A DNA stretch of 33,469 nt, taken from positions 1 to 33,469 of the forward strand of contig LCKG01000007.1 in the NCBI GenBank assembly GCA_001001285.1, given 5' to 3'. A program made the translations under genes and the position numbers. Origin of the DNA: Parcubacteria group bacterium GW2011_GWC1_45_13. Its GTDB lineage: Bacteria; Patescibacteriota; Minisyncoccia; UBA11713; 2-01-FULL-45-33. Shown here in pieces: positions 2,443 through 28,851 of this stretch (position 1 is its first letter; each line of letters begins with the position of its first letter). The notes under the pieces are model-generated. The model was not told the DNA's origin, made no database searches, and worked only from the letters and a program-made list of their open reading frames with translations.

Positions 2443-4110
2443 ATGACGAGCCCAAGGTTTATTTTTGTTATAGGGGGGGTGATGTCCGGAATCGGTAAGG
2501 GCATTACTACCGCGTCCGTCGCCAGGATTTTAAAATCCAAAGGTTTTCGCGCCACTTGCGTCAAAATTGACCCTTATCTCAATGTAGACGCGGGGACCAT
2601 GAACCCCACAGAGCATGGGGAAGTTTTTGTTACTGAAGACGGCATGGAGACGGACCAGGATCTCGGAAACTACGAAAGATTTTTGGGCGAAAATATTCTT
2701 TCTTACAATTACATGACCTCCGGGTCGGTGTATCTTTCGGTAATAGAGCGGGAACGCGCTTTGGGGTATGGCGGAAGATGTGTGGAAACAGTGCCACATA
2801 TTCCGGAGGAAGTGATAAGGAGGCTCTCGCTAGCAGGGAAAAAAGCGAAAGCCGATTTTGTTTTGGTGGAAATTGGCGGCACCGTCGGGGAGTACCAAAA
2901 TTTAGTATACTTGGAAGCCGCGCGCATGCTGCATCTTAAAAATCCGAATAACGTCATATTTATTTTGGTAAGCTATCTGCCCGTGCCGAAGCAAATCGGG
3001 GAGATGAAGACCAAGCCAACGCAATACGCGGTACATTCTTTAAACGCGGCCGGCATCCAGCCGGATTTTATTATCGCCAGGTCCGAATTGCCCTTGGATG
3101 AACCGCGCAAGAAAAAGCTTTCCGTGTTTTGCAATGTCGGACCTGGAGATATTATTTCCGCTCCCGATATTGAGAATATCTATCAGGTGCCTGTTAATTT
3201 TGAAAAGGATAAATTGGGTTTGAAAATTTTAGCCAAATTCGGCATGGATGGGAAAAAGCGGGATTTGGCCGATTGGTCGCGTGTTCTCCGCCGGGCGCTT
3301 TTTTCAAAAAAAGAAATCAAAATCGGCATTGTAGGCAAATATTTCAATACTGGCAAATTTACTCTTTCCGATTCTTATATTTCGGTGATTGAAGCGATTA
3401 AGCAAGCCAGCTGGCATTTGGGACTCTGTCCGAAAATTTTATGGCTGGACGCCGAGTCTTATGAAAAAGATTCCAGAAAAATGCGCGGGGAGTTGCAGGA
3501 ACTTGACGGCATAATCGTACCGGGAGGTTTTGGAGAGAGAGGCGTGAACGGGAAAATTAAAGCGATAGAATTCGCACGGAAAAACAGTAAGCCCTTTTTC
3601 GGGCTTTGCTACGGCATGCAGCTCGCGGTTATAGAGTTTGCCAGAAATGTCGCCGGAATGCATGGCGCGCACACTACTGAAGTAAATCCTCGAACAAAGT
3701 ATCCCGTGATTGATCTGATGCAGGAACAAAAAGCGAAAATTTTCGCGAAAAAATTGGGAGGCACGATGCGTTTGGGCGCTTACGCCTGCCGTTTGTCGGA
3801 TAAAACAATCGCCAAAGCTGCGTATGGCCTGCCTGCCGGCAAGGCAGGCGCGCGTACGGTGTATGAACGCCACCGCCACAGGTACGAATTTAACAGCGCC
3901 TTAAGAAAAGTTCTGGAATCAAAAGGGCTCGTTGTTTCCGGCGTGAATCCTGAAAGTGGGCTGGTTGAAATTATAGAGCTTAAAAATCATCCTTTTTTTC
4001 TTGGCACGCAATTCCACCCGGAATTTAAATCAAGATTTTTGAATCCTCACCCGTTATTTTCAGTTTTTATCAAAGCGGCATATAAAGTTAAACAACAAAA
4101 GCATGGTTGA
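2443..4110 (+). CDS. pyrG: CTP synthase
   Basis: GGVMSGIGKGITTASVARIL, KIDPYLNVDAGTMNPTEHGEVFV, GLCYGMQLA glutaminase motif, ERHRHRYEFN. Confidence 0.97.
   Translation: MTSPRFIFVIGGVMSGIGKGITTASVARILKSKGFRATCVKIDPYLNVDAGTMNPTEHGEVFVTEDGMETDQDLGNYERFLGENILSYNYMTSGSVYLSVIERERALGYGGRCVETVPHIPEEVIRRLSLAGKKAKADFVLVEIGGTVGEYQNLVYLEAARMLHLKNPNNVIFILVSYLPVPKQIGEMKTKPTQYAVHSLNAAGIQPDFIIARSELPLDEPRKKKLSVFCNVGPGDIISAPDIENIYQVPVNFEKDKLGLKILAKFGMDGKKRDLADWSRVLRRALFSKKEIKIGIVGKYFNTGKFTLSDSYISVIEAIKQASWHLGLCPKILWLDAESYEKDSRKMRGELQELDGIIVPGGFGERGVNGKIKAIEFARKNSKPFFGLCYGMQLAVIEFARNVAGMHGAHTTEVNPRTKYPVIDLMQEQKAKIFAKKLGGTMRLGAYACRLSDKTIAKAAYGLPAGKAGARTVYERHRHRYEFNSALRKVLESKGLVVSGVNPESGLVEIIELKNHPFFLGTQFHPEFKSRFLNPHPLFSVFIKAAYKVKQQKHG
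3828..3848 (-). repeat. In-frame 21-bp palindromic element in pyrG
   Basis: cctgcctgccggcaaggcagg; its reverse complement CCTGCCTTGCCGGCAGGCAGG differs by 1 base from 20162-20182. Encodes LPAGKAG. Confidence 0.88.
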
Positions 4111-4597
4111 GATTATCCCATCCATCAACGTTTCAGACTTTGATGAGCTAAAAAAGCGGATAAAAAAAGTTGAACCATACTTCAAATGGGCGCATTTGGA
4201 TGTTTCGGACGGGGTTTTCACAAAACATGTAAGCTGGCATGATCCGAAAGACTTGGTTGGGCTTAAAACCAAGCTGAAATTGGAGGTTCATTTAATGATT
4301 GACCGGCCGGAAAGGACAATTGAGGAATGGCTGATAAAACCGGTCTCGCGGGTTATTTTTCATCAGGAAGCCACAAAAGATCACCGGCTTTTGATAGATA
4401 AAATTCAGGGGCATGTACGGCACGTCTGCCCGGAGTGTATAATAGAAGTTGACGGCGGAGTGAATAAACGCGTCGCCGCCAGATGCATTAAAGAGGGCGC
4501 GAATTTATTGGTCGCCGGCAAAGCAATTTTTGATCCGCCAACTGGCGGAAAAAACATTAAAAAAGTAATCGCAGAATTAAAAAATGCCGCATCTTAA
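4103..4597 (+). CDS. Ribulose-phosphate 3-epimerase-like protein, shorter than typical
   Basis: IIPSINVSDFDEL, HLDVSDGVFT, EVHLMI, IEVDGGVN, GANLLVAGKAIF; 164 aa, apparently lacking a mid-barrel segment. Confidence 0.85.
   Translation: MVEIIPSINVSDFDELKKRIKKVEPYFKWAHLDVSDGVFTKHVSWHDPKDLVGLKTKLKLEVHLMIDRPERTIEEWLIKPVSRVIFHQEATKDHRLLIDKIQGHVRHVCPECIIEVDGGVNKRVAARCIKEGANLLVAGKAIFDPPTGGKNIKKVIAELKNAAS
4534..4549 (+). repeat. In-frame 16-bp palindrome TCCGCCAACTGGCGGA in rpe-like gene
   Basis: TCCGCCA-AC-TGGCGGA; encodes the PPTGG loop. Same form as 14102-14117. Confidence 0.7.
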
Positions 4598-4952
4598 ATT
4601 GGTATTGTTTTGTCTAAGCTTATTACCATTGATTCTCGGTATTGTTTTATTTAATCACGGACAAGGGTTTGATAATGATGATGCATTCATCATCTTTTTA
4701 GCAGAGGCATTAATAGGCTTTTTATTAATTAATTTATTTTTCTATTTCAATTCATATCTGATGTCATTTGTGCTTTCGCTGGGTTTATATGTAATTCTAT
4801 ATTTTGTCTTTACCGCCGATCCCAACGGAGATGAGTTTGCTGTAGGGATAAGTTTGTTGATTTATCCTGTTTTAGTTGCAGTATTGTGTTTAATTTTCGC
4901 TTGCTATAAGTTTTTTAATTTTTTAAAGTCAAGGAATCGGGCGGGCGAGTAA
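4584..4952 (+). CDS. Small multi-pass membrane protein, unknown function
   Basis: 122-aa hydrophobic ORF overlapping the upstream gene's end. Confidence 0.65.
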   Translation: MPHLKLVLFCLSLLPLILGIVLFNHGQGFDNDDAFIIFLAEALIGFLLINLFFYFNSYLMSFVLSLGLYVILYFVFTADPNGDEFAVGISLLIYPVLVAVLCLIFACYKFFNFLKSRNRAGE

Positions 4953-4964
4953 AACGAAATTTCT

Positions 4965-5825
4965 ATGAGCCATTTGCACGAAGATAAAATAAAATTTTTG
5001 GAGGAAAAAGCGAATGCCGTAAGGCAGTCCATTATTGAGATGTTGGTGGAGGCGGGAAGCGGGCATACCGCCGGGCCTTTGGGGATGGCGGATGTTTTTA
5101 CCGCTTTTTATTTTCACATTTTAAATCACAACCCCAAAAAACCGTATTGGGAGGAAAGAGACCGCCTGATTTTATCCAATGGGCATATTTGCCCCGTGAG
5201 ATATGCCGCAATGGCGCACGCGGGATATTTTCCGCTGGAAGAATTAAAGACATTAAGAAAATTGGGAACGCGTCTTCAAGGGCATCCTCATCGCACCGCT
5301 TTGCCCGGAGTTGAGACGACTTCCGGTCCGTTGGGCTCCGGCCTTAGCCAGGCATCGGGATACGCTTACGGCGCGAAAATGGATAACAGAAAATTTAAAG
5401 TTTATTGTTTTATGTCCGACGGCGAACAGCAAGCCGGAAATACCTGGGAAGCCGCTATGTTCTCCGGGAAATACAAATTAAATAATCTGATCGGGCTTAT
5501 TGACCGTAACAATATCCAAATTGACGGCATGACGGAAGATATCATGCCTTTGGAGCCCCTCCGCGCAAAATACGAAGCATTCAACTGGCACGTTTTGGAA
5601 ATTGACGGGCATAATTTTGAGGAAATTGTGAACGCGGTTGAAGAGGCTAAGGCGATCTATGAAAAACCAACCGTCATTATTTCGCACAACATTCCGGGCA
5701 AAGGAATTAAAGAAATAGAGTTTGATTACAAATGGCATGGCATCCCGCCCAATAAAGAGCAGGCCGCAAAATTTTTAGCCGAGCTCCGAACATTAGGAGG
5801 AAAAATAAAATCTGAACACGAGTAA
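4965..5825 (+). CDS. Transketolase, N-terminal subunit
   Basis: GHTAGPLGMADVFTAFYFHIL, GSGLSQASGYAYGAKM, TPP-binding MSDGEQQAGNTWEAAMFSGKYKLNNLIGLIDRNNIQIDG. Confidence 0.95.
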   Translation: MSHLHEDKIKFLEEKANAVRQSIIEMLVEAGSGHTAGPLGMADVFTAFYFHILNHNPKKPYWEERDRLILSNGHICPVRYAAMAHAGYFPLEELKTLRKLGTRLQGHPHRTALPGVETTSGPLGSGLSQASGYAYGAKMDNRKFKVYCFMSDGEQQAGNTWEAAMFSGKYKLNNLIGLIDRNNIQIDGMTEDIMPLEPLRAKYEAFNWHVLEIDGHNFEEIVNAVEEAKAIYEKPTVIISHNIPGKGIKEIEFDYKWHGIPPNKEQAAKFLAELRTLGGKIKSEHE

Positions 5826-5826
5826 C

Positions 5827-6831
5827 ATGCCAATAAATCCGAAAGTAAAATTAGTTGAGAATGTTTTGGAGAAAGCGAAGATTGAGCAGGCACCGACGCG
5901 GAAGGGCTACGGTGAGGGGCTTTTGGCTGCCGGTGAGGCAAACGAAAAAGTAGTCGCGCTCTGCGCTGATCTCACCGAATCAACCCAGATGCATCTTTTT
6001 GCCAAAAAATTCCCGCAAAGATTTATTGAGATGGGCGTGGCTGAACAAAACCTGGCGACTGTCGCCGCGGGGCTGGCAAACTATGGGAAAATTCCGTTCA
6101 TTTCTTCCTACGCGATGTTTTCCCCGGGGAGAAACTGGGAGCAGATTAGGACAACGATTTGCTATAACGAAGTTTCTGTGAAAATTGCCGGATCGCACGC
6201 CGGAGTATCGGTTGGGCCGGACGGCGCGACTCATCAGGCGATTGAAGATATCGCTCTTATGCGGCCGATTCCAAATATGACGGTTATTAATCCGTGCGAC
6301 GCGCATGAGGCGAAAAAAGCAACGATGGCGGCAGTTGGTGTAAATGGGCCGGTTTATCTTCGTTTTGCCAGGGAAAAAACGCCTGTGTTTACGACTTCAG
6401 AGACGCCGTTTGAAGTTGGTAAAGCGGAAATTTTCTGGGATGCCGGCGGAAAGTTAGATGTTGCCGTTATTGCTTGCGGTCCGCTTGTGCACAATGCTAT
6501 TTTAGCCGCGGCGGACTTGGAAAAAGAGGGCATTAAAATTCGCGTAATAAACAACCATACAATAAAACCGATGGATGAGAAAACGATTATTGAAGCCGCG
6601 CGAGATGCCGGTGCTGTTGTAACTGTTGAAGAGCATCAAGTGCAAGGCGGCATGGGTTCCGCCGTAGCCGAAGTGCTTGCTAAAAATTATCCCGTGCCAA
6701 TTGAATTTGTCGGCGTGCAGAACCGTTTTGGAGAAAGCGGTACGCCAAATGAACTCATTGAACACTTCGGTATGGGCGTCTCGCATATTAAAGAGGCTGT
6801 TAAGAAAGTTTTAAAAAGAAAGACAAAATAA
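5827..6831 (+). CDS. Transketolase, C-terminal subunit
   Basis: RKGYGEGLLAAGEANEKVVALCADLTEST, ERFIEMGVAEQNLATVAAGLA, VEEHQVQGGMGSAVAEVL, NRFGESG. Confidence 0.95.
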   Translation: MPINPKVKLVENVLEKAKIEQAPTRKGYGEGLLAAGEANEKVVALCADLTESTQMHLFAKKFPQRFIEMGVAEQNLATVAAGLANYGKIPFISSYAMFSPGRNWEQIRTTICYNEVSVKIAGSHAGVSVGPDGATHQAIEDIALMRPIPNMTVINPCDAHEAKKATMAAVGVNGPVYLRFAREKTPVFTTSETPFEVGKAEIFWDAGGKLDVAVIACGPLVHNAILAAADLEKEGIKIRVINNHTIKPMDEKTIIEAARDAGAVVTVEEHQVQGGMGSAVAEVLAKNYPVPIEFVGVQNRFGESGTPNELIEHFGMGVSHIKEAVKKVLKRKTK

Positions 6832-6837
6832 ACCAAT

Positions 6838-7827
6838 ATGAGACAATATGATTTTATAGCGATAGGAGATACGGTTACCGACGCGTTTATAAGATTAAAA
6901 GACGCGTCGGTGCATTGCAATATTGATAAAGAAAAGTGCGAGATTTGCCTGCGTTTTAAAGATAAAATTCCTTACGAGGAGGTTTATGTCGTGTCGGCAG
7001 TTGGGAACGCCGCCAACGCCTCGGTGGTTGCCGCTAGATTGGGACTTCAAAGCGCGCTTATTTCCAATATCGGAGACGATTATTTCGGTGAAGAAGCTCT
7101 GGGTGCTCTAAAAAAGGAAAATGTCGGCGCGGAATTTGTGACGGTAAACAACGGCAAAAAAACAAATTATCATTATGTGCTTTGGTACGAAGATGACAGG
7201 ACAATTTTGATAAAACATCAGGAATACGATTACCGCTTACCCTATTTCAACGACCCAAAATGGGTTTATTTTTCTTCTATGGGCGAAAATTCTATGCCGT
7301 TTCATGAAGTTTTTGAAAAATATATGAGCGAGCACCCGAATGTAAAACTGGCTTTCCAGCCAGGGACTTATCAGATGAAATTTGGGAGAAAAAAACTCGC
7401 CGGTATCTATAGGCGAACAGATGTTTTTATTTCCAATAAAGAAGAAACGCAAAGGATTTTGGAAGTCGGCGAACCGGACGTTAAAAAATTAATGAAAGGC
7501 ATAATGGAGCTGGGCCCCAAAATTGCGGTAGTTACTGATGGCACAGAAGGAGCCTATGCTTACGATGGGAAATCCGCTTGGTTTATGCCTCCTTATCCCG
7601 ATCCAAAGCCGCCTTATGAAAGAACTGGCGCCGGTGACGCGTTTTCCTCCACTTTTGTAGTTGCGCTTTGCCTCGGGCTTTCCGTGCAGGACGCTCTCCG
7701 CTGGGCGCCGATAAACTCCATGTCGGTGGTGCAGTATGTTGGGGCAAGAGAAGGTCTTTTAACCCGGTATAAATTAGAAAAATATTTATCCGAAGCCCCA
7801 GCCGATTATATTCCCAAATTAATATGA
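6838..7827 (+). CDS. PfkB-family carbohydrate kinase
   Basis: N-terminal AIGDTVTDAFI, GNAANASVVAARLG, C-terminal PfkB signature RTGAGDAFSSTFV. Confidence 0.93.
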   Translation: MRQYDFIAIGDTVTDAFIRLKDASVHCNIDKEKCEICLRFKDKIPYEEVYVVSAVGNAANASVVAARLGLQSALISNIGDDYFGEEALGALKKENVGAEFVTVNNGKKTNYHYVLWYEDDRTILIKHQEYDYRLPYFNDPKWVYFSSMGENSMPFHEVFEKYMSEHPNVKLAFQPGTYQMKFGRKKLAGIYRRTDVFISNKEETQRILEVGEPDVKKLMKGIMELGPKIAVVTDGTEGAYAYDGKSAWFMPPYPDPKPPYERTGAGDAFSSTFVVALCLGLSVQDALRWAPINSMSVVQYVGAREGLLTRYKLEKYLSEAPADYIPKLI

Positions 7828-14613: not shown

Positions 14614-15339
14614 ATGGAAATTACGGAAAATACCGAAATTGAGACTCTTTTTGCCGCGGGGGCACATGTTGGATATTCCAAAACGCGTCGGCACCCCAGC
14701 ATGAAGGAATTTATTTTTGGCACCAGAAATAATATTGAGATTTTTGATCTTGGCAAAACTCTGGCCAATTTAAAAACAGCGGAAGAGTTTTTAAAGTTGT
14801 TGGGCAGGGAAGGTAAGGCCGTTCTTTGGGTCGGCTCCAAACCGCCGGCAAGTCGGTTTATCAGGGAAGCGGCTAAAAAAACCGGAATGCCGTATGTTGC
14901 GGAAAGGTGGCTGGGCGGCACTTTGACTAATTTTAAGGTTTTTGAAGGGCGCTTGGCACATTTGGCCAAATTGGAAACTGAAGAAATGTCGGGCGGATTT
15001 GAAAAATATTCCAAAAAAGAAAAACTTCTCAAGACGATAGAAATCAGAAAACTTGGCAGAATGTTTGAGGGGTTAAAAAACGTAAAATCTTTGCCGCAAG
15101 CCTTGATTATTGTTGACCCGGGAGAAGAAAAAACGGCTTTATCCGAAGCCCACAGGAAAAATATTCCCGTGGTTGCTATATTAAACGTGGATTGTGACCC
15201 CCAAAATATAAAATATACTATTCCGGCTAACGACAATTCTTCGGCCGTGATTTCGCTGATATTAAGTAAACTCGCTACGGCCTATGAAGCCGGCCTTGCG
15301 GAGAAACAAGCCGAAAAACAAATAGAAAAACCAGTATGA
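14614..15339 (+). CDS. rpsB: 30S ribosomal protein S2
   Basis: GAHVGYSKTRRHPSMKEFIFGTRNNIEIFDL, YVAERWLGGTLTNF, PVVAILNVDCDPQNIKYTIPANDNS. Confidence 0.96.
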   Translation: MEITENTEIETLFAAGAHVGYSKTRRHPSMKEFIFGTRNNIEIFDLGKTLANLKTAEEFLKLLGREGKAVLWVGSKPPASRFIREAAKKTGMPYVAERWLGGTLTNFKVFEGRLAHLAKLETEEMSGGFEKYSKKEKLLKTIEIRKLGRMFEGLKNVKSLPQALIIVDPGEEKTALSEAHRKNIPVVAILNVDCDPQNIKYTIPANDNSSAVISLILSKLATAYEAGLAEKQAEKQIEKPV

Positions 15340-15788
15340 CCATATCCAGCGATTTGGTAAAACGTCTTAGAGAGACAACCGGCGCGTCCATGGTGCTTTG
15401 TAAAAAGATTTTGGAAGAAGCCGGCGGAGATTTGGAGCTGGCTTCGGCGCTTATTTTAAAATCGTCTGAAGGCTTGGCAGTCAAAAAAAGCGAACGAGAA
15501 ACCGGCGCTGGGATTGTGGAAGCATACATCCATGCTGGGGGGAAAGTGGGCGTGCTTTTGGAGCTCCGGTGTGAGACCGATTTTGTGGCAAGAAACCAGG
15601 AATTTAAATCTTTGGCGCATGAGATGGCTTTGCATATCGCAGGCATGAACCCGGAGAATATTAAATTAATGCTCGCCCAGCTCTACGTTAAAGACCAGTC
15701 AATGACGGTTGAAGAGTTGATAAAACGGGCTACCGCCAAATTCGGCGAAAAAATAGAAGTGGCCAGATTCGTAAGATACGAGCTTTAA
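15336..15788 (+). CDS. tsf: Elongation factor Ts, short form
   Basis: LVKRLRETTGASMVLCKKILEEAGGDLELA, VLLELRCETDFVARNQEFKSLAHEMALHIA; 150 aa, follows rpsB. Confidence 0.94.
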   Translation: MTISSDLVKRLRETTGASMVLCKKILEEAGGDLELASALILKSSEGLAVKKSERETGAGIVEAYIHAGGKVGVLLELRCETDFVARNQEFKSLAHEMALHIAGMNPENIKLMLAQLYVKDQSMTVEELIKRATAKFGEKIEVARFVRYEL

Positions 15789-16157: not shown

Positions 16158-16228
16158 GCCGGAGAGAGGACTTGAACCTCCAACCTACGGTTTACAAAAC
16201 CGTTGCTCTGCCATTGAGCTACTCCGGC
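16158..16228 (-). tRNA. tRNA-Thr(TGT)
   Basis: Reverse complement GCCGGAGTAGCTCAATGGCAGAGCAACGGTTTTGTAAACCGTAGGTTGGAGGTTCAAGTCCTCTCTCCGGC; 7-bp acceptor, anticodon TGT, no encoded CCA. Confidence 0.95.
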
Positions 16229-16332
16229 AATTTTTTAATTTTACACTATTTTTTAAAATAATCAACTTAAAATTGCTTAAATCAAATTTGTAATCTGACA
16301 GCTATAGCGCTGAAAATGCAAATTACACATAG

Positions 16333-16361
16333 TTGCAAAAAATTAAAAAGTTGTGTATAAT
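16333..16361 (+). promoter_or_regulatory. Candidate promoter for the DUF5667-like gene
   Basis: TTGCAA (16333-16338), N17, TATAAT (16356-16361), 8 nt to ATG 16370. Confidence 0.65.
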
Positions 16362-16369
16362 AAAGCTTA

Positions 16370-18295
16370 ATGAAAAAGCTCTCTTTTGTTGTTTCTTTTT
16401 TGCTTTTAACGGCTGTTTTTACGGCTCCTCTTTCCGTCTCGGCAGCCGAAAGCGCGGGGATTAAACCCGGCAGTTTTTTCTACGGTTTTGTCACCACTTT
16501 TGAGAAAGTAAACCTATTTTTTACTTTCAATCCCGAGAAAAAAGCGGAAAAAGCTCTAAAATACGCCGAAAAGCGGCTCGCCGAAGCCGAGGCTGTTGCT
16601 GGAGATAAAAATTCAGACGCTGTTAAAACCGCAATTTCCGGTTATGAAACAAACATCGCTCTCGCGGCCGAGGCGTCAAAAAAAGTTAAGGACGAAACCA
16701 AGGCCGAAAACCTCCTTAATTTAATCGCGGACAACGCTTCAAAACACCAAACAATTCTGTCGGATGTCTTATCTAAAGTCCCCGACGAAGCCAAAGAAGC
16801 AATAACAAAAGCAATTGAAACAAGCCGTAAAGGCCAAGAGGAGGCAATACAAAAAATCGCCGAATTAAAGCAGGAAGTCGCGGGGCTTAAACAGGAGGTC
16901 GCAGAATTAAAAAAACAGCAAAGCACGGAATCCGCCACTTCTCAAAAGATTGGCGCGGAGAGCCCACCAACGAGCATTAAAGAATTAAAAAAAGAGATTG
17001 AGGAGCTAAAAAAACAAGCCGCAGAGAAAGAAGAGCGTGAAAAACAGGCAACAACCCCAACTACTCCAACCCAGCCTGCTGTCAAAGTTCCAGTATCACA
17101 AACAGAAATTAAAGCAAAAGAACAAGCTGTTACCTTAACCAACTCTCTCGGAATATCTTATACTTTTGACGACCCGATGATTAATAAACAAAGAGTCCGG
17201 GACTTGATTGGTATTGGCTTCGTTGTGACTAAAGGTGAGCTCCCAGAGGGAATAATAATTAAACCCGTTGAAACTCTACCGCCCATGCCGACTCCAATAC
17301 CTACCACAATTTCTACCCTAATACCAACAGCTACGCCAACACCTACTCCAACTCTGACCCCAACCCCAACTCCGACTCCAACGCCCACCCCGACTCCTAT
17401 GCCAACGCCTACACTGACTCCAACTGATAATTTACTTGTTAATATTGAACAGGTGTCTTTCCAAGATCTGGCGAATTCTGGTTATAACATAAGTTATCCA
17501 GATTATTTTGCTGCGTTCAGAGTTACATGCGATGAATCGATTATTTTAAACAACTTTAGTTTTATTTTTAACAACCCTAACTCACTCGCACGACTTTATA
17601 ATGTAGATCTTGCTGGTACTAATATTCCAGTAATAGCGCCCGGTAATACTGTTATATTTAATGGCGAAAAAAATTGTGATCCAAATTCTAGTCCTAACTA
17701 TAAAGTTTTGATGCTTAAATCGTATTCGAGTGAGGCTGGTTGGAATATAGTGTTTAACTCGGTTGCCGTAAAACGAAAATATTTTCCGTCTCTTCCTATA
17801 ACTTTAACTGGGCTGCCAATTAATGTTTTACCAAGAGATAGAATCCTTAAATTGGCATTACTGTCCTCTACTTTATCTGGATTAATACCCCCAAGCTCAT
17901 ATGGAAGTCCCACCATATTAAAACTTGGGCTCACAAGCGATTATACAAACTTATCAATAAATAGCGTGAAATTGTTACTTGTTGGTGAGACATTTTTTGA
18001 TGGTGGAAATTCAAAAAATGTTAATGTTTCTGTTAGTGAAAACAACACATATATTATTAAACAACAACCATTTGAATCAGGCATTACAAGTACTTACACT
18101 TACGGTAACCCAGGTTATCAATACGATATTGGATCTAAATCATACACCATTATAGATGTACAGCTTAGTTTAGTGGGTGCAAAGCCGGGCACAAAATGGA
18201 ATGCTACTCTTCTCGATATAGAATTTATAGACAAAAACACCGGTTCAAAAATCAATGAAACCGGTTTACCTATAAGTAATGAAATTGGGTACTAA
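16370..18295 (+). CDS. Secreted DUF5667-like protein with coiled coil, Thr-Pro linker and C-terminal extracellular region
   Basis: Signal peptide; PGSFFYGFVTTFEKVNLFFTFNPEKKAEKALKYAEKRLAEAEAV; TPTPTPTPTP linker near aa 325-355; uncharacterised C-terminus. Confidence 0.8.
   Translation: MKKLSFVVSFLLLTAVFTAPLSVSAAESAGIKPGSFFYGFVTTFEKVNLFFTFNPEKKAEKALKYAEKRLAEAEAVAGDKNSDAVKTAISGYETNIALAAEASKKVKDETKAENLLNLIADNASKHQTILSDVLSKVPDEAKEAITKAIETSRKGQEEAIQKIAELKQEVAGLKQEVAELKKQQSTESATSQKIGAESPPTSIKELKKEIEELKKQAAEKEEREKQATTPTTPTQPAVKVPVSQTEIKAKEQAVTLTNSLGISYTFDDPMINKQRVRDLIGIGFVVTKGELPEGIIIKPVETLPPMPTPIPTTISTLIPTATPTPTPTLTPTPTPTPTPTPTPMPTPTLTPTDNLLVNIEQVSFQDLANSGYNISYPDYFAAFRVTCDESIILNNFSFIFNNPNSLARLYNVDLAGTNIPVIAPGNTVIFNGEKNCDPNSSPNYKVLMLKSYSSEAGWNIVFNSVAVKRKYFPSLPITLTGLPINVLPRDRILKLALLSSTLSGLIPPSSYGSPTILKLGLTSDYTNLSINSVKLLLVGETFFDGGNSKNVNVSVSENNTYIIKQQPFESGITSTYTYGNPGYQYDIGSKSYTIIDVQLSLVGAKPGTKWNATLLDIEFIDKNTGSKINETGLPISNEIGY
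17332..17424 (+). repeat. Thr-Pro-encoding microsatellite-like tract
   Basis: ctccaactctgaccccaaccccaactccgactccaacgcccacc... encodes (TP)n within the 16370 CDS. Confidence 0.85.
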
Positions 18296-18369
18296 ATCGA
18301 ATAAATTTCTATCATGGACCAGCTCAAAGAAAAATGCTTGAGCAGTAATTACTGAAACATACTTTTCAT

Positions 18370-19236
18370 ATGACGCTAATTGCCGGACAACTTTTTTTCC
18401 AAGGTTTAGTACTGATTGCTGACAGTAGAGCCAGCACTATCAAAAATGGGAAAATTGTTCCTTGGAGAGACAATACCCAGAAGATATTTCTTCTTTCGAG
18501 CCACTTGGGTATTGGTTTTGCGGGAGACATAGAATTTGCTGGTAGCATAATTAGCTTTTTAAGTAGCCAAATAGAAAAAAGGCCACTCTTGAGGAATTTA
18601 CATGTTTTTTATAGCAAAGGACCCAAGCTCATAAGATACGCGTACAAAATTCTATCGGAAAAAACTGGGGAAAAAAGACCAGTTGGATTTATTGTCGCGT
18701 CTCTTGACCCAAACAGACCGGAACCAATAAAAAATGAAATCGGACAGATAACTGGGCATATCGGCATTTACGATAAAAAACTATTTAAAATTTCATTTCC
18801 GGAAGATTCTTTTGAAGAAGCAAAATTAATTTTAATGCCATCTTTGGTTTTAGGTAGTGGAGAGCCTGCTGTAAGAGGGAAAGAGGATTCACTCAAGAAA
18901 TTATTATTTTGTTCAGCAATGAATTCTTTATATTTTCAAGCATTTCTTATAGATTTGATTTTGAGGAGAAAGATCAAAGAATTAGGCATAGATACGGTTG
19001 GTGGTTTGTCACAAATACTAATAATTGAGCCAAAAAGCTCAGGCTTTTTGCAGTACAAAGGGAAAAGTGACTTAGACGATTCTACGGATATATTAGATAT
19101 AGAGCTTATAATAAAAAATGATAGGTTAGTTCAACACAATTTAATTACCGGCAAAGAAACCCCTTTGCTTTTTCCGCCGGAAGTGATGAAAATCAAAGAT
19201 CCAGAATCTGATTTATTTGCGGATTTAGACAGCTAA
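18370..19236 (+). CDS. Putative Ntn-hydrolase, proteasome-beta/HslV-like
   Basis: M-TLIAGQLFFQGLVLIADSRAST...DNTQKIFLLSSHLGIGFAGDIEFAGSIISFLSSQI. With Thr2 as T1: D17, R19 and K37 (proteasome-like spacing). Confidence 0.55.
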   Translation: MTLIAGQLFFQGLVLIADSRASTIKNGKIVPWRDNTQKIFLLSSHLGIGFAGDIEFAGSIISFLSSQIEKRPLLRNLHVFYSKGPKLIRYAYKILSEKTGEKRPVGFIVASLDPNRPEPIKNEIGQITGHIGIYDKKLFKISFPEDSFEEAKLILMPSLVLGSGEPAVRGKEDSLKKLLFCSAMNSLYFQAFLIDLILRRKIKELGIDTVGGLSQILIIEPKSSGFLQYKGKSDLDDSTDILDIELIIKNDRLVQHNLITGKETPLLFPPEVMKIKDPESDLFADLDS

Positions 19237-19361
19237 TACTTTGCGTTTTTACAGAAAGTTCAAAAATTATCACTTTAAACATAGATTTTCTTCTTTCCGC
19301 AACCGTTTTTCCAGCGGGCGGGGAAAAATTAAGGGAAAATCCAACGGCTCAACGGGCAGAA

Positions 19362-19598
19362 TTATTTAAGGGCATCCCAAATTTCGGATTCTTGAAAGCC
19401 CCATTCCATCATCTTTTTAAATATTTTCATATTCAAAAATTTATGGAGTTTATGCTGAATAGTATATTTTGCATCAGTTTTAGGATGTTTAACCAAACAA
19501 TGACTGCCGTCCCCTCTCCTGCAGTCAACCAACAGACCAAGTTTTCTGCAAGCCCTCAACCAATCTCGCTGCTTCAAATCTGAAAATCCTCCTTGCAT
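19362..19598 (-). CDS. HicA-like mRNA interferase toxin
   Basis: LKQRDWLRACRKLGLLVDCRRGDGSHCLVKHPKTDAKYTIQHKLHKFLNMKIFKKMMEWG; GSH motif; next to a HicB-like gene. Confidence 0.75.
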   Translation of the reverse strand: MQGGFSDLKQRDWLRACRKLGLLVDCRRGDGSHCLVKHPKTDAKYTIQHKLHKFLNMKIFKKMMEWGFQESEIWDALK

Positions 19599-19600
19599 AT

Positions 19601-19960
19601 CTATCTCGTGACATATACTTTCGTGGTATATACTTTTTGCTCAATCGTAACTGGCTCATTATTCATCCTAACTAAATCATAATTAACCAAGTACGGAGGA
19701 ATTTCAAAATAAGTAAAAACAGCGCCTTTGATAACCCGACTTATTTCCTTCACATCATTACCTCCCGTAAGAATACCGTCGATATTTGTTGATTCGGCAG
19801 TCCAGCTTCCGTCCGGATAATGTTCAATTGTAAAACTTATTTCTTTTAATTCGTTCATTTTTTTTAACATAGCTAAAACAACGGGGTTTTGATTTTCGTG
19901 AAAATCAACTCCGTATTTCTTCACTAATTGACTTATATTAAAAATTGCTCTAGTAAACAT
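19601..19960 (-). CDS. HicB-like antitoxin
   Basis: ISFTIEHYPDGSWTAESTNIDGILTGGNDVKEISRVIKGAVFTYFEIP. Minus-strand TATAAT (19972-19977) lies 11 nt before ATG. Confidence 0.7.
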   Translation of the reverse strand: MFTRAIFNISQLVKKYGVDFHENQNPVVLAMLKKMNELKEISFTIEHYPDGSWTAESTNIDGILTGGNDVKEISRVIKGAVFTYFEIPPYLVNYDLVRMNNEPVTIEQKVYTTKVYVTR

Positions 19961-20042
19961 TCTTTTGCTTTATTATAGCATGAAATAATTAAGATATCCA
20001 CATAACTGTTTTCAAGTCTATTCATAGCATTTATATATTCCT

Positions 20043-20070
20043 TTGTCCAGACCCACTTTTTTGCTATAAT
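20043..20070 (+). promoter_or_regulatory. Candidate ndh promoter
   Basis: TTGTCC (20043-20048), N16, TATAAT (20065-20070), 7 nt to ATG 20078. Confidence 0.55.
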
Positions 20071-20077
20071 TTTTTAT

Positions 20078-26163: not shown

Positions 26164-28851
26164 ATGCCTCCATACGGACAATTTACAATTAAAGCTCAAG
26201 AAGCCTTGAAAAGAGCCCATGAGCTGGCAATAGAGCGTGGCGGGAGCCAAATAGACGCCATGCATCTTTTGGCTGCTTTGCTTTTGCAAGAAGACGGCGT
26301 TATACCATCCCTATTGGATAAATTGGAAACCGACCAAGCCAATTTGGTAGATTTAGTTATGGGCGAACTGGATAATACTTTGCGCACCAATATTCTTTCG
26401 CCTTCGCATCAGATTTATTTGACGCCTGAGCTGGCAAGGGTTTTGGAGGAGGCCCACAAATCCGCCTCATTTCTGAAAGACGAATTTATCTCAACCGAAC
26501 ATTTATTTTTGGGGATTTTGGAGGCTCCATCCAGAGCCCGCGAAATTTTGGGGCGTTTTTCTTTAAACCGCGAGATGATTTTAAGGGCGCTCGCGGACAT
26601 CAGGGGCTCGCAAAGAGTGACAGATGTTGAGCCGGAAAATAAATACAGGGCTCTGGAAAAATACGCCAGAAATTTAACGCGATTAGCACGCGAGGATAAA
26701 CTAGACCCAGTTATCGGCAGAGACGAGGAAATCCGGCGCGTCATGCAGGTGCTTTCACGAAGAACGAAAAACAACCCCGTGCTCATCGGTGAAGCCGGAG
26801 TGGGGAAAACCGCTATTGTTGAAGGCCTGGCCAGTCGCATCGCCTCCGGAGATGTGCCCGAAACGCTTAAAGACAAAGAATTAATTTCGCTGGATTTGGG
26901 GGCGCTGGTGGCCGGCACAAAATACCGCGGCGAATTTGAAGAAAGATTAAAGGCGGTGATGAAAGAATTGGAGCGCGCCGCCGGCAAAGTCCTGCTTTTT
27001 ATTGACGAGGTGCATACTCTAGTGGGCGCGGGCGCGGCCGAAGGCGCTATGGACGCTTCTAACATGTTAAAACCCGCTCTTGCCCGCGGAGAGCTTCACG
27101 CCATTGGCGCTACGACCATTAAAGAATATCAAAAATACATAGAAAAAGACGCGGCTTTGGCACGCAGGTTCCAGCCGGTTTTGGTTGACGAGCCTTCGCT
27201 GGAGGATACCGTGTCAATTCTTCGCGGAATTAAAAATAAATACGAACTTCATCACGGCATCAAAATCACTGATGCTGCTATTACCACGGCGGTGAATCTT
27301 TCGGCGCGCTACATCACTGACCGTTTTTTGCCGGATAAAGCGATTGATTTGATAGATGAAGCCGCGTCTTCTTTAAGGCTCCAGATGGACAGCATGCCGG
27401 ATGAGTTGGAGCACACCCGACGAGAAGTCATGAAATTGGAAATTGAAAAGGAGGCTCTGAAAAAAGAGGAATCCAATCCGGAGGCAAAACAAAAAATCCG
27501 CAAAATCCAAAAACAAATTGACGAATTAAAAGAGGAAACCGCTGGACTGGAGATGCGCTGGAAGCATGAGAAGGAAACGATTGATGCCATCCGTCAATTA
27601 AAAAAAGATTTGGAAATTTTTCGCCAGGAATCGGACGCGGCCGAGCGCCGCGGAGATTTAGCAAAAGTGGCCGAGATAAGATATGGCCGGATTCCCGAAT
27701 CGGAAAAAATGCTTTACGCCGAAGAGGGGAAATTACGAAAAATTCAGGGCACTCGCCGCATTTTGCGTGAAGAAATTACCGAAGAAGACATCGCCGACAT
27801 AGTTTCCAGGTGGACCGGCATACCGGTCAGGCGCATGCTGGAATCGGAAGCCAAAAAACTTTTAAGAATGGAGGAGGAACTTAAAAAACGGGTGATCGGG
27901 CAGGCCGAAGCCATAGAAAAAATTTCGCAGGCAATCCGCAGGTCGCGCGCGGGCATCGCGGATGAAAAGCGGCCAATCGGCTCCTTTATGTTTTTGGGAC
28001 CGACCGGCGTGGGAAAAACCGAGCTGGCTTTGACTTTATCAGAATTTCTTTTCAATGACGAAAAAGCGCTGGTGCGTGTAGATATGTCGGAATATATGGA
28101 GCGGCACGCCGTTTCCAAATTTATCGGCTCGCCCCCCGGCTATGTCGGCTACGAAGAAGCGGGGAATTTGACCGAAACCATACGTCACCGACCTTACGCT
28201 GTTTTACTTTTTGATGAAATTGAAAAAGCACATCCGGAAGTTTTCAACATTATGCTTCAGATTTTGGACAACGGCACGCTCACGGACGCCAAGGGCAGGC
28301 ACGTGAATTTTAAAAACACAGTTATAATCATGACTTCCAACATCGGCGGGGAATTTATCCGCGAGATGGGGAGCTTGGGGTTCGTCGGTGGGGCGGTTGA
28401 CCGTGTGAAAAAAGAAGACGACTTGAAAACCAAAATTTTGCGCTCTTTGGAACAGCATTATCGGCCTGAATTTTTAAACAGATTGGACGAGGTGATTATT
28501 TTCAATTCGCTCCAGCCGGAAGAGCTCAAGCAGATTGCGAAAATTCAGATTGCCAGGCTTACCGAAAGAATCAGCGCGCGAGGCATATCTGTTTCCGTCA
28601 ATAAATCAGCGGAGGATGCGCTGGCGAAAGAAGGCTACGACCCTAATTATGGCGCGCGTCCTTTGAGGCGGCTTATTCAAAACAAAATTTTAAATCCTTT
28701 GGCGGAGAAAATAATTTCAAAACAGATAAAAGAAGGGGATACAGCTTTGGTTGATTTCCGCTCCGGCGCGTTTGTGATTGAGGTTAAAAAACTTCTCTCG
28801 GCTTTGCCGAAAAAGGAAAAGGACAAAAAAGTTAAAATTACAACTACTTAA
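26164..28851 (+). CDS. ClpB/ClpC-family AAA+ ATPase
   Basis: Clp_N repeats, [15 protein letters not shown] and [16 protein letters not shown] Walker A motifs, coiled-coil middle domain, [11 protein letters not shown]. Confidence 0.95.

Follow-up and report, generated by a model that had tools for sequence, protein, structure and literature searches.

A candidate stand-alone proteasome-like Ntn hydrolase from a variable genomic hotspot in Patescibacteria

Stand-alone relatives of the proteasome

In the proteasome family, catalysis relies on the attack of Thr1, which is helped by Asp17 and Lys33. Besides the well-known members, Fuchs, Alva and Lupas described in 2021 22 types of new stand-alone, uncharacterised proteasome homologs, whose genomic context was uninformative on function and some of which may use housekeeping factors (PMC8665760). 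Connectase, which lacks helices H1 and H2 and carries a two-helix insertion between strands S3 and S4, provides evidence that members of this family can ligate (PMC8665760). The window analysed here, i.e., the whole stretch of 33,469 nucleotides of contig LCKG01000007.1 from Parcubacteria group bacterium GW2011_GWC1_45_13, encodes a 288-aa protein that appears to be one more stand-alone proteasome-like Ntn-hydrolase candidate and a member of a known, almost uncharacterised family.

The gene and its predicted active site

The gene and the residues of its predicted active site are as follows (L047 and L058 are the two full-length relatives described below):

18370..19236, plus strand: gene for the proteasome-like Ntn-hydrolase candidate, 288 aa, with the ATG directly before the nucleophile Thr and no propeptide
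18373..18375, plus strand: Thr2 (Thr1 of the mature protein), predicted to be the nucleophile; kept as Thr in L058, with Ser at this position in L047
18421..18423, plus strand: Asp18 (Asp17), invariant in the alignment of the protein with its two relatives and in a 7-member alignment
18427..18429, plus strand: Arg20 (Arg19), invariant in the alignment of the protein with its two relatives
18481..18483, plus strand: Lys38 (corresponding to Lys33), invariant in both alignments
18523..18525, plus strand: Gly52 (corresponding to Gly47 of the oxyanion hole); conserved in L058 but replaced by Ser in L047
18856..18861, plus strand: Ser163-Gly164 in a GSG motif (corresponding to Ser129-Gly130 in the alignments)
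18991..19005, plus strand: Asp208-Thr-Val-Gly-Gly motif, the counterpart of the Asp166...GlyGly region, with a spacing one residue shorter than in Thermoplasma beta
19060..19233, plus strand: C-terminal extension formed by residues 231-288, which can also be recognised in L047 and L058 and for which beta strands are predicted at low confidence

The open reading frame is real and intact, and its position and length are exactly those given in the first-pass annotation. Its ATG is the first possible start, being preceded by an in-frame stop and then by 7 sense codons that include no ATG, GTG or TTG. Scans for promoters and terminators returned no signal above the shuffle level. Thr1, Asp17 and Arg19, numbered after removal of the Met, were found where that annotation had placed them, as was the Lys at mature position 37, which aligns with Lys33 of proteasome beta. 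The block that had been likened to a G-x-AG-x-x-D-A helix is also present, except that its Asp is missing and Phe56 stands in its place. To the residues listed earlier, the alignments add Gly52, Ser163-Gly164 and Asp208-x-x-Gly-Gly as further active-site counterparts, so that, judging from the sequence, the active site looks intact.

The spacing of these elements differs to some extent from that in Thermoplasma beta: the S2-S3 loop is ~4 residues longer and the distance from the GSG motif to the Asp is ~8 residues longer. Between S5 and S6, there is an insertion of ~16 residues that is longer still in L047, while L058 lacks it. The C-terminal extension noticed previously is indeed there, comprising ~58 aa, and can be recognised in both full-length relatives.

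These features bear on the possibility that the protein, instead of being a protease, works like connectase as a specific ligase or transpeptidase. Both are stand-alone Ntn enzymes of the same family with the same catalytic residues, no partner of the 288-aa protein was found in its host genome, and connectase itself offers a precedent (PMC8665760). However, the H1/H2 region that connectase lacks is aligned in the 288-aa protein, and the segment between S3 and S4 is a short turn from which a connectase-like insertion is absent. A ligase of this kind is a fairly unlikely identity for the protein.

Relatives and family membership

The only Pfam match of the 288-aa protein was to the Proteasome family (PF00227), with an E value of 0.0011 and a score of 19.1 bits, below the gathering score of 22.4; in NCBIfam, it matched the archaeal proteasome beta model with an E value of 0.0075. 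These direct matches are suggestive, not conclusive. Two full-length relatives were found. One (L047/L032, 28-29% identity) comes from Candidatus Levybacteria CG2_30_37_29 (genome G554), a member of the same phylum; the other (L058, 25% identity) comes from genome G508, where the similarity covers the N-terminal region of a protein of 569 aa. The residues invariant across all three proteins are Gly6, Asp18, Ser19, Arg20, Asp34, Lys38, Gly162, Gly164, Asp208, Gly211, Gly212, Gln215 and Ile216. The first-pass annotation had singled out conservation of the Thr, Asp and Lys in orthologues as a check; both relatives retain the Asp, the Lys and the Gly motifs, whereas the residue after Met1 is Thr in the window protein and L058 and Ser in L047.

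Profile comparison gave a much clearer result. A three-member profile, built from the window protein and its relatives from G554 and G508, was aligned by hhalign with a second profile, in which 20 proteasome-like sequences from bacteria of the same class were combined with Thermoplasma PsmB and E. coli HslV (22 in all). The match had a probability of 98.7% and an E value of 2.4e-16 over 196 columns, and it superposed the nucleophile, Asp17, Lys33, Gly47, and the GSG and GG motifs. When used alone against the 22-sequence profile, the 288-aa protein scored 62.8 (96.1%, E value of 3.2e-9), compared with a maximum of 27.9 over 100 composition shuffles and 17.7 over 30 other ORFs of the window, which puts the match beyond chance. 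AlphaFold2 run on a two-sequence input returned a pLDDT of only 32.6 for the 288-aa protein, so the fold is assigned from sequence profiles only. Taken together, the ORF, the residues and the profile match bear out the initial description of a long, stand-alone, proteasome-like candidate with an intact-looking active site.

The weak similarity to the well-known members of the family and the small number of relatives could be taken to suggest that the homolog is decaying or has lost its activity, or that its function is structural. Against this, the catalytic residues are kept at only 25-29% identity, which indicates selection on those residues, and the reading frame is intact; such a reading is decidedly unlikely.

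Beyond bacterial chromosomes, tblastn found no relative of the 288-aa protein in phages and, among plasmids, a single weak one from Salmonella, a protein of 346 aa that matches over the first 71 residues. This hypothetical protein with a proteasome-like N-terminus (L057, positions 4001-5041) is encoded on the Salmonella enterica plasmid pRSE21 and was seen on only two near-identical plasmids. Two matches (L025 and L087) were dropped because a proteasome-like ORF was absent at either locus, and most rows of the relative search with E values of 0.01-0.1 were dropped as chance. The 569-aa protein of L058 (positions 4895-6604, minus strand) is itself a fusion, in which the proteasome-like domain is followed by ~300 residues with a weak match to DUF6941; its gene adjoins a DUF4365 gene.

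Comparison with the described branches

In a per-group profile comparison, the nearest group consisted of short stand-alone proteins from the same class that begin with M-T-L (97.8%), followed by the proteins that the leading gene of tandem proteasome pairs encodes (97.5%). Farther away were the LexA-associated proteins (92.7%), the Salmonella plasmid protein (89.5%) and a protein from G562 (87.3%). PsmB (39.2%) and HslV (2.3%) were far, albeit these figures are weakened by the small size of the profiles (two and one sequences).

The first-pass annotation had suggested a new branch related to HslV or Anbu. The relationship to HslV did not hold up: the profile probability of 2.3% falls to 0.3% when HslV is compared with the 288-aa protein alone, the NCBIfam HslV models do not match the protein, and HslU was not found in the host genome. 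The N-terminal Thr and the absence of an alpha partner are shared with HslV, but the 288-aa protein is ~110 residues longer than E. coli HslV. Similarly to Anbu, it is a stand-alone bacterial homolog with an M-T start, no propeptide and an extended C-terminus. However, the extension of Anbu is the coiled-coil helix H5, whereas here (comparing by description only) a low-confidence model predicts strands rather than a helix, and matches to solved structures in the PDB, up to an E value of 10, were proteasome alpha and beta chains, with neither Anbu nor HslV among them. That the protein forms a new branch of HslV or Anbu is highly improbable, HslV being the firmer rejection of the two. As for the novelty of the branch, the protein is indeed stand-alone and proteasome-like, but the claim is weaker than it sounds, as 22 uncharacterised subfamilies had already been described (PMC8665760).

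Proteasome beta subunits (PF00227; PrcB/PsmB) share with the 288-aa protein the catalytic residues and an alignment over the whole domain. Unlike them, it has a longer C-terminus and scores below the Pfam cut-off, and neither an alpha subunit nor a Pup ligase was found in the host genome. The protein fits the stand-alone kind of homolog reported by Fuchs et al., in which it is placed by their description, not by their sequences. In particular, it resembles group II (the WPH-linked types PMI, PHD, FC, GPH and DAH) in being stand-alone without an AAA+ partner, in having Thr/Ser right after the Met, in the Asp17/Lys33/Gly47 set, in the extra C-terminal elements and in its sporadic distribution (PMC8665760). 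With the types again compared by description, neither the large H3/H4 insertion of PMI-2 to PMI-6 nor the S3/S4 insertion of PMI-5 and PMI-6 is apparent, the distance from GSG to the Asp exceeding that of Thermoplasma beta by only ~8 residues.

Genomic setting

The gene lies in a variable hotspot with the following features:

16158..20077, no strand: variable hotspot, bounded by the conserved 121-aa ORF that follows tsf and by a Pyr_redox_2 gene
16370..18295, plus strand: DUF5667 gene whose product has a coiled coil and Pro-Thr repeats, separated by 74 bp from the 288-aa gene downstream on the same strand
19362..19598, minus strand: HicA-like toxin gene (PF07927, E value of 0.0056, below the cut-off), convergent with the 288-aa gene
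19601..19960, minus strand: 119-aa ORF next to the HicA-like gene; only its position is HicB-like, and it has no Pfam or NCBIfam matches

The order rpsB, tsf, an ORF of 100-120 aa and Pyr_redox_2 is kept in most genomes of the family, with the variable stretch located between the last two genes. In G003, this stretch is only 127 bp long; in other sister genomes, it carries PemK/MazF-type (G002 and G008), NYN (G006) or LPD3-like (G001) genes, and in the window, it carries the DUF5667 gene, the 288-aa gene and the HicA-like pair. The DUF5667 gene is a resident of the hotspot, with relatives in sister genomes. The 288-aa gene was absent from all 9 other genomes of the same family that were searched, including relatives from the same genus. 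Its GC content is 0.356 (0.311 at third codon positions), and the values for this gene together with the HicA-like pair are 0.33-0.38, versus ~0.43-0.50 in most flanking housekeeping genes. The site is an AT-rich cargo hotspot, and this setting makes acquisition the simplest reading of the origin of the gene. On the whole, the 288-aa protein is probably a stand-alone proteasome-like Ntn hydrolase whose gene this Patescibacteria genome acquired as accessory hotspot cargo.

The EF-Ts encoded in the window (15336-15788) is only 150 aa long, its EF_TS domain match covering 76 of 204 positions. It is equally short (150 aa) in G001 and G002, as opposed to 195 aa in G003, G007 and G008.

Partners and predicted mode of action

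The host assembly comprises 755,799 bases in 28 contigs and is 95% complete. The 288-aa protein is its single match to PF00227; no alpha-type partner was detected, and neither a Pup ligase (PF03136) nor HslU was found in this assembly, the HslU model giving only partial, below-cut-off matches to two other AAA+ genes. Given this completeness and the number of contigs, a partner gene could be missing from the assembly. One of the two weak matches is the following gene of the window:

26164-28851: Clp-type AAA+ gene, ~7 kb from the 288-aa gene and not in an operon with it

Thus, the earlier statement that there is no neighbouring ATPase stands for a dedicated partner and has to be qualified by the presence of this gene in the window.

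A ring-forming degradative protease, i.e., a two-ring particle of the HslV/BPH type that makes use of a housekeeping AAA+ protein, for instance this Clp-type ATPase, would be in keeping with the intact-looking active site and with the suggested use of housekeeping factors by some homologs (PMC8665760). Nevertheless, the AAA+ gene lies outside any shared operon, the C-terminal extension and the S5/S6 insertion may hinder ring packing, and the HslV profile match is poor. Such an assembly is quite unlikely, given also the sporadic distribution.

If the protein is, as preferred here, a stand-alone hydrolase, methionine aminopeptidase would remove Met1, and the exposed Thr1 could then serve as the nucleophile, helped by Asp17 and Lys33. 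The candidate enzyme can be expected to act on a particular substrate, cleaving (or transferring) its peptide bonds with no unfoldase of its own, with the C-terminal extension possibly contributing to substrate choice or assembly. As no unfoldase was found, the substrate is likely to be an unfolded segment or a specific partner.

As to the biological role, a guess from context is that the gene most likely is an accessory one whose function lies close to those of the toxin-antitoxin and defence-type genes around it. A HEPN_AbiV gene is found beside L047 and a DUF4365 gene beside L058, which, along with the setting in the window, suggests accessory and possibly defence-related work, judging from few loci and their raw counts. 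No PADLOC family matches the 288-aa protein. Two loci with different stand-alone proteasome-like genes, L047 (7852-8244) and L059 (8858-9250), encode nearby the same 130-aa Cys/His-rich protein with a weak Phage_Mu_F match.

A second subfamily paired with LexA-type genes

A stand-alone homolog of 308-338 aa that begins with MSL-INxTTxEG was identified at 8 loci (in G264, G073, G558, G349, G374, G530, G354 and G345). This LexA-associated subfamily is distinct from that of the window protein. In 6 of the 8 (L060, L090, L091, L093, L094 and L097), a LexA-type DNA-binding gene is located directly upstream; five of these genes were scanned, with E values from 4e-12 to 0.021, and the one in G073 is, by eye, a close homolog of that in G264. 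Restriction-modification genes are found nearby in 5 of these 6, and in L094 the LexA-type gene and the homolog are embedded in a type I hsdM/S/R operon. At five loci, genes for methylases and/or restriction enzymes occur within ~6 kb:

G264: EcoRI-type methylase and GmrSD
G073: D12 methylase
G349: methylase and ResIII
G374: methylase and TdeIII endonuclease
G345: HsdM/S/R surrounding the homolog

A tentative scheme, possible rather than probable, is that stand-alone proteasome-like Ntn hydrolases recur in mobile defence and toxin-antitoxin islands of Patescibacteria. One subfamily would be a protease coupled to a LexA-type repressor in restriction-modification loci, forming a split switch similar to that of phage CI, and the subfamily of the window protein would be related to it but independent, serving loci of the toxin-antitoxin or defence type. 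In contrast to the 2021 survey (PMC8665760), several stand-alone homologs of these small-genome bacteria do have neighbours that are informative (toxin-antitoxin-like, HEPN, DUF4365 and restriction-modification genes). If this holds, a large group of uncharacterised enzymes would gain a role that can be tested, and small stand-alone enzymes, perhaps with no need for an ATPase, would become available for simple biochemistry.

Pup-proteasome loci in related genomes

Several loci from relatives within the class (L062, L063, L066, L068 and similar ones) contain tandem proteasome-like pairs beside genes for Pup ligase (PF03136) and AAA proteins of the proteasomal ATPase type. Small Pup-like ORFs end with GGQ in L063 (8430-8669) and with GGE in L066 (13338-13553). 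As Pup-proteasome loci of Patescibacteria with small genomes, these look complete. In G170, a gene that clearly encodes a proteasome beta subunit (179.5 bits; L073, positions 6864-7568) was also seen, on an 8-kb contig with a second PF00227 match at its end; these genes may represent contamination or transfer.
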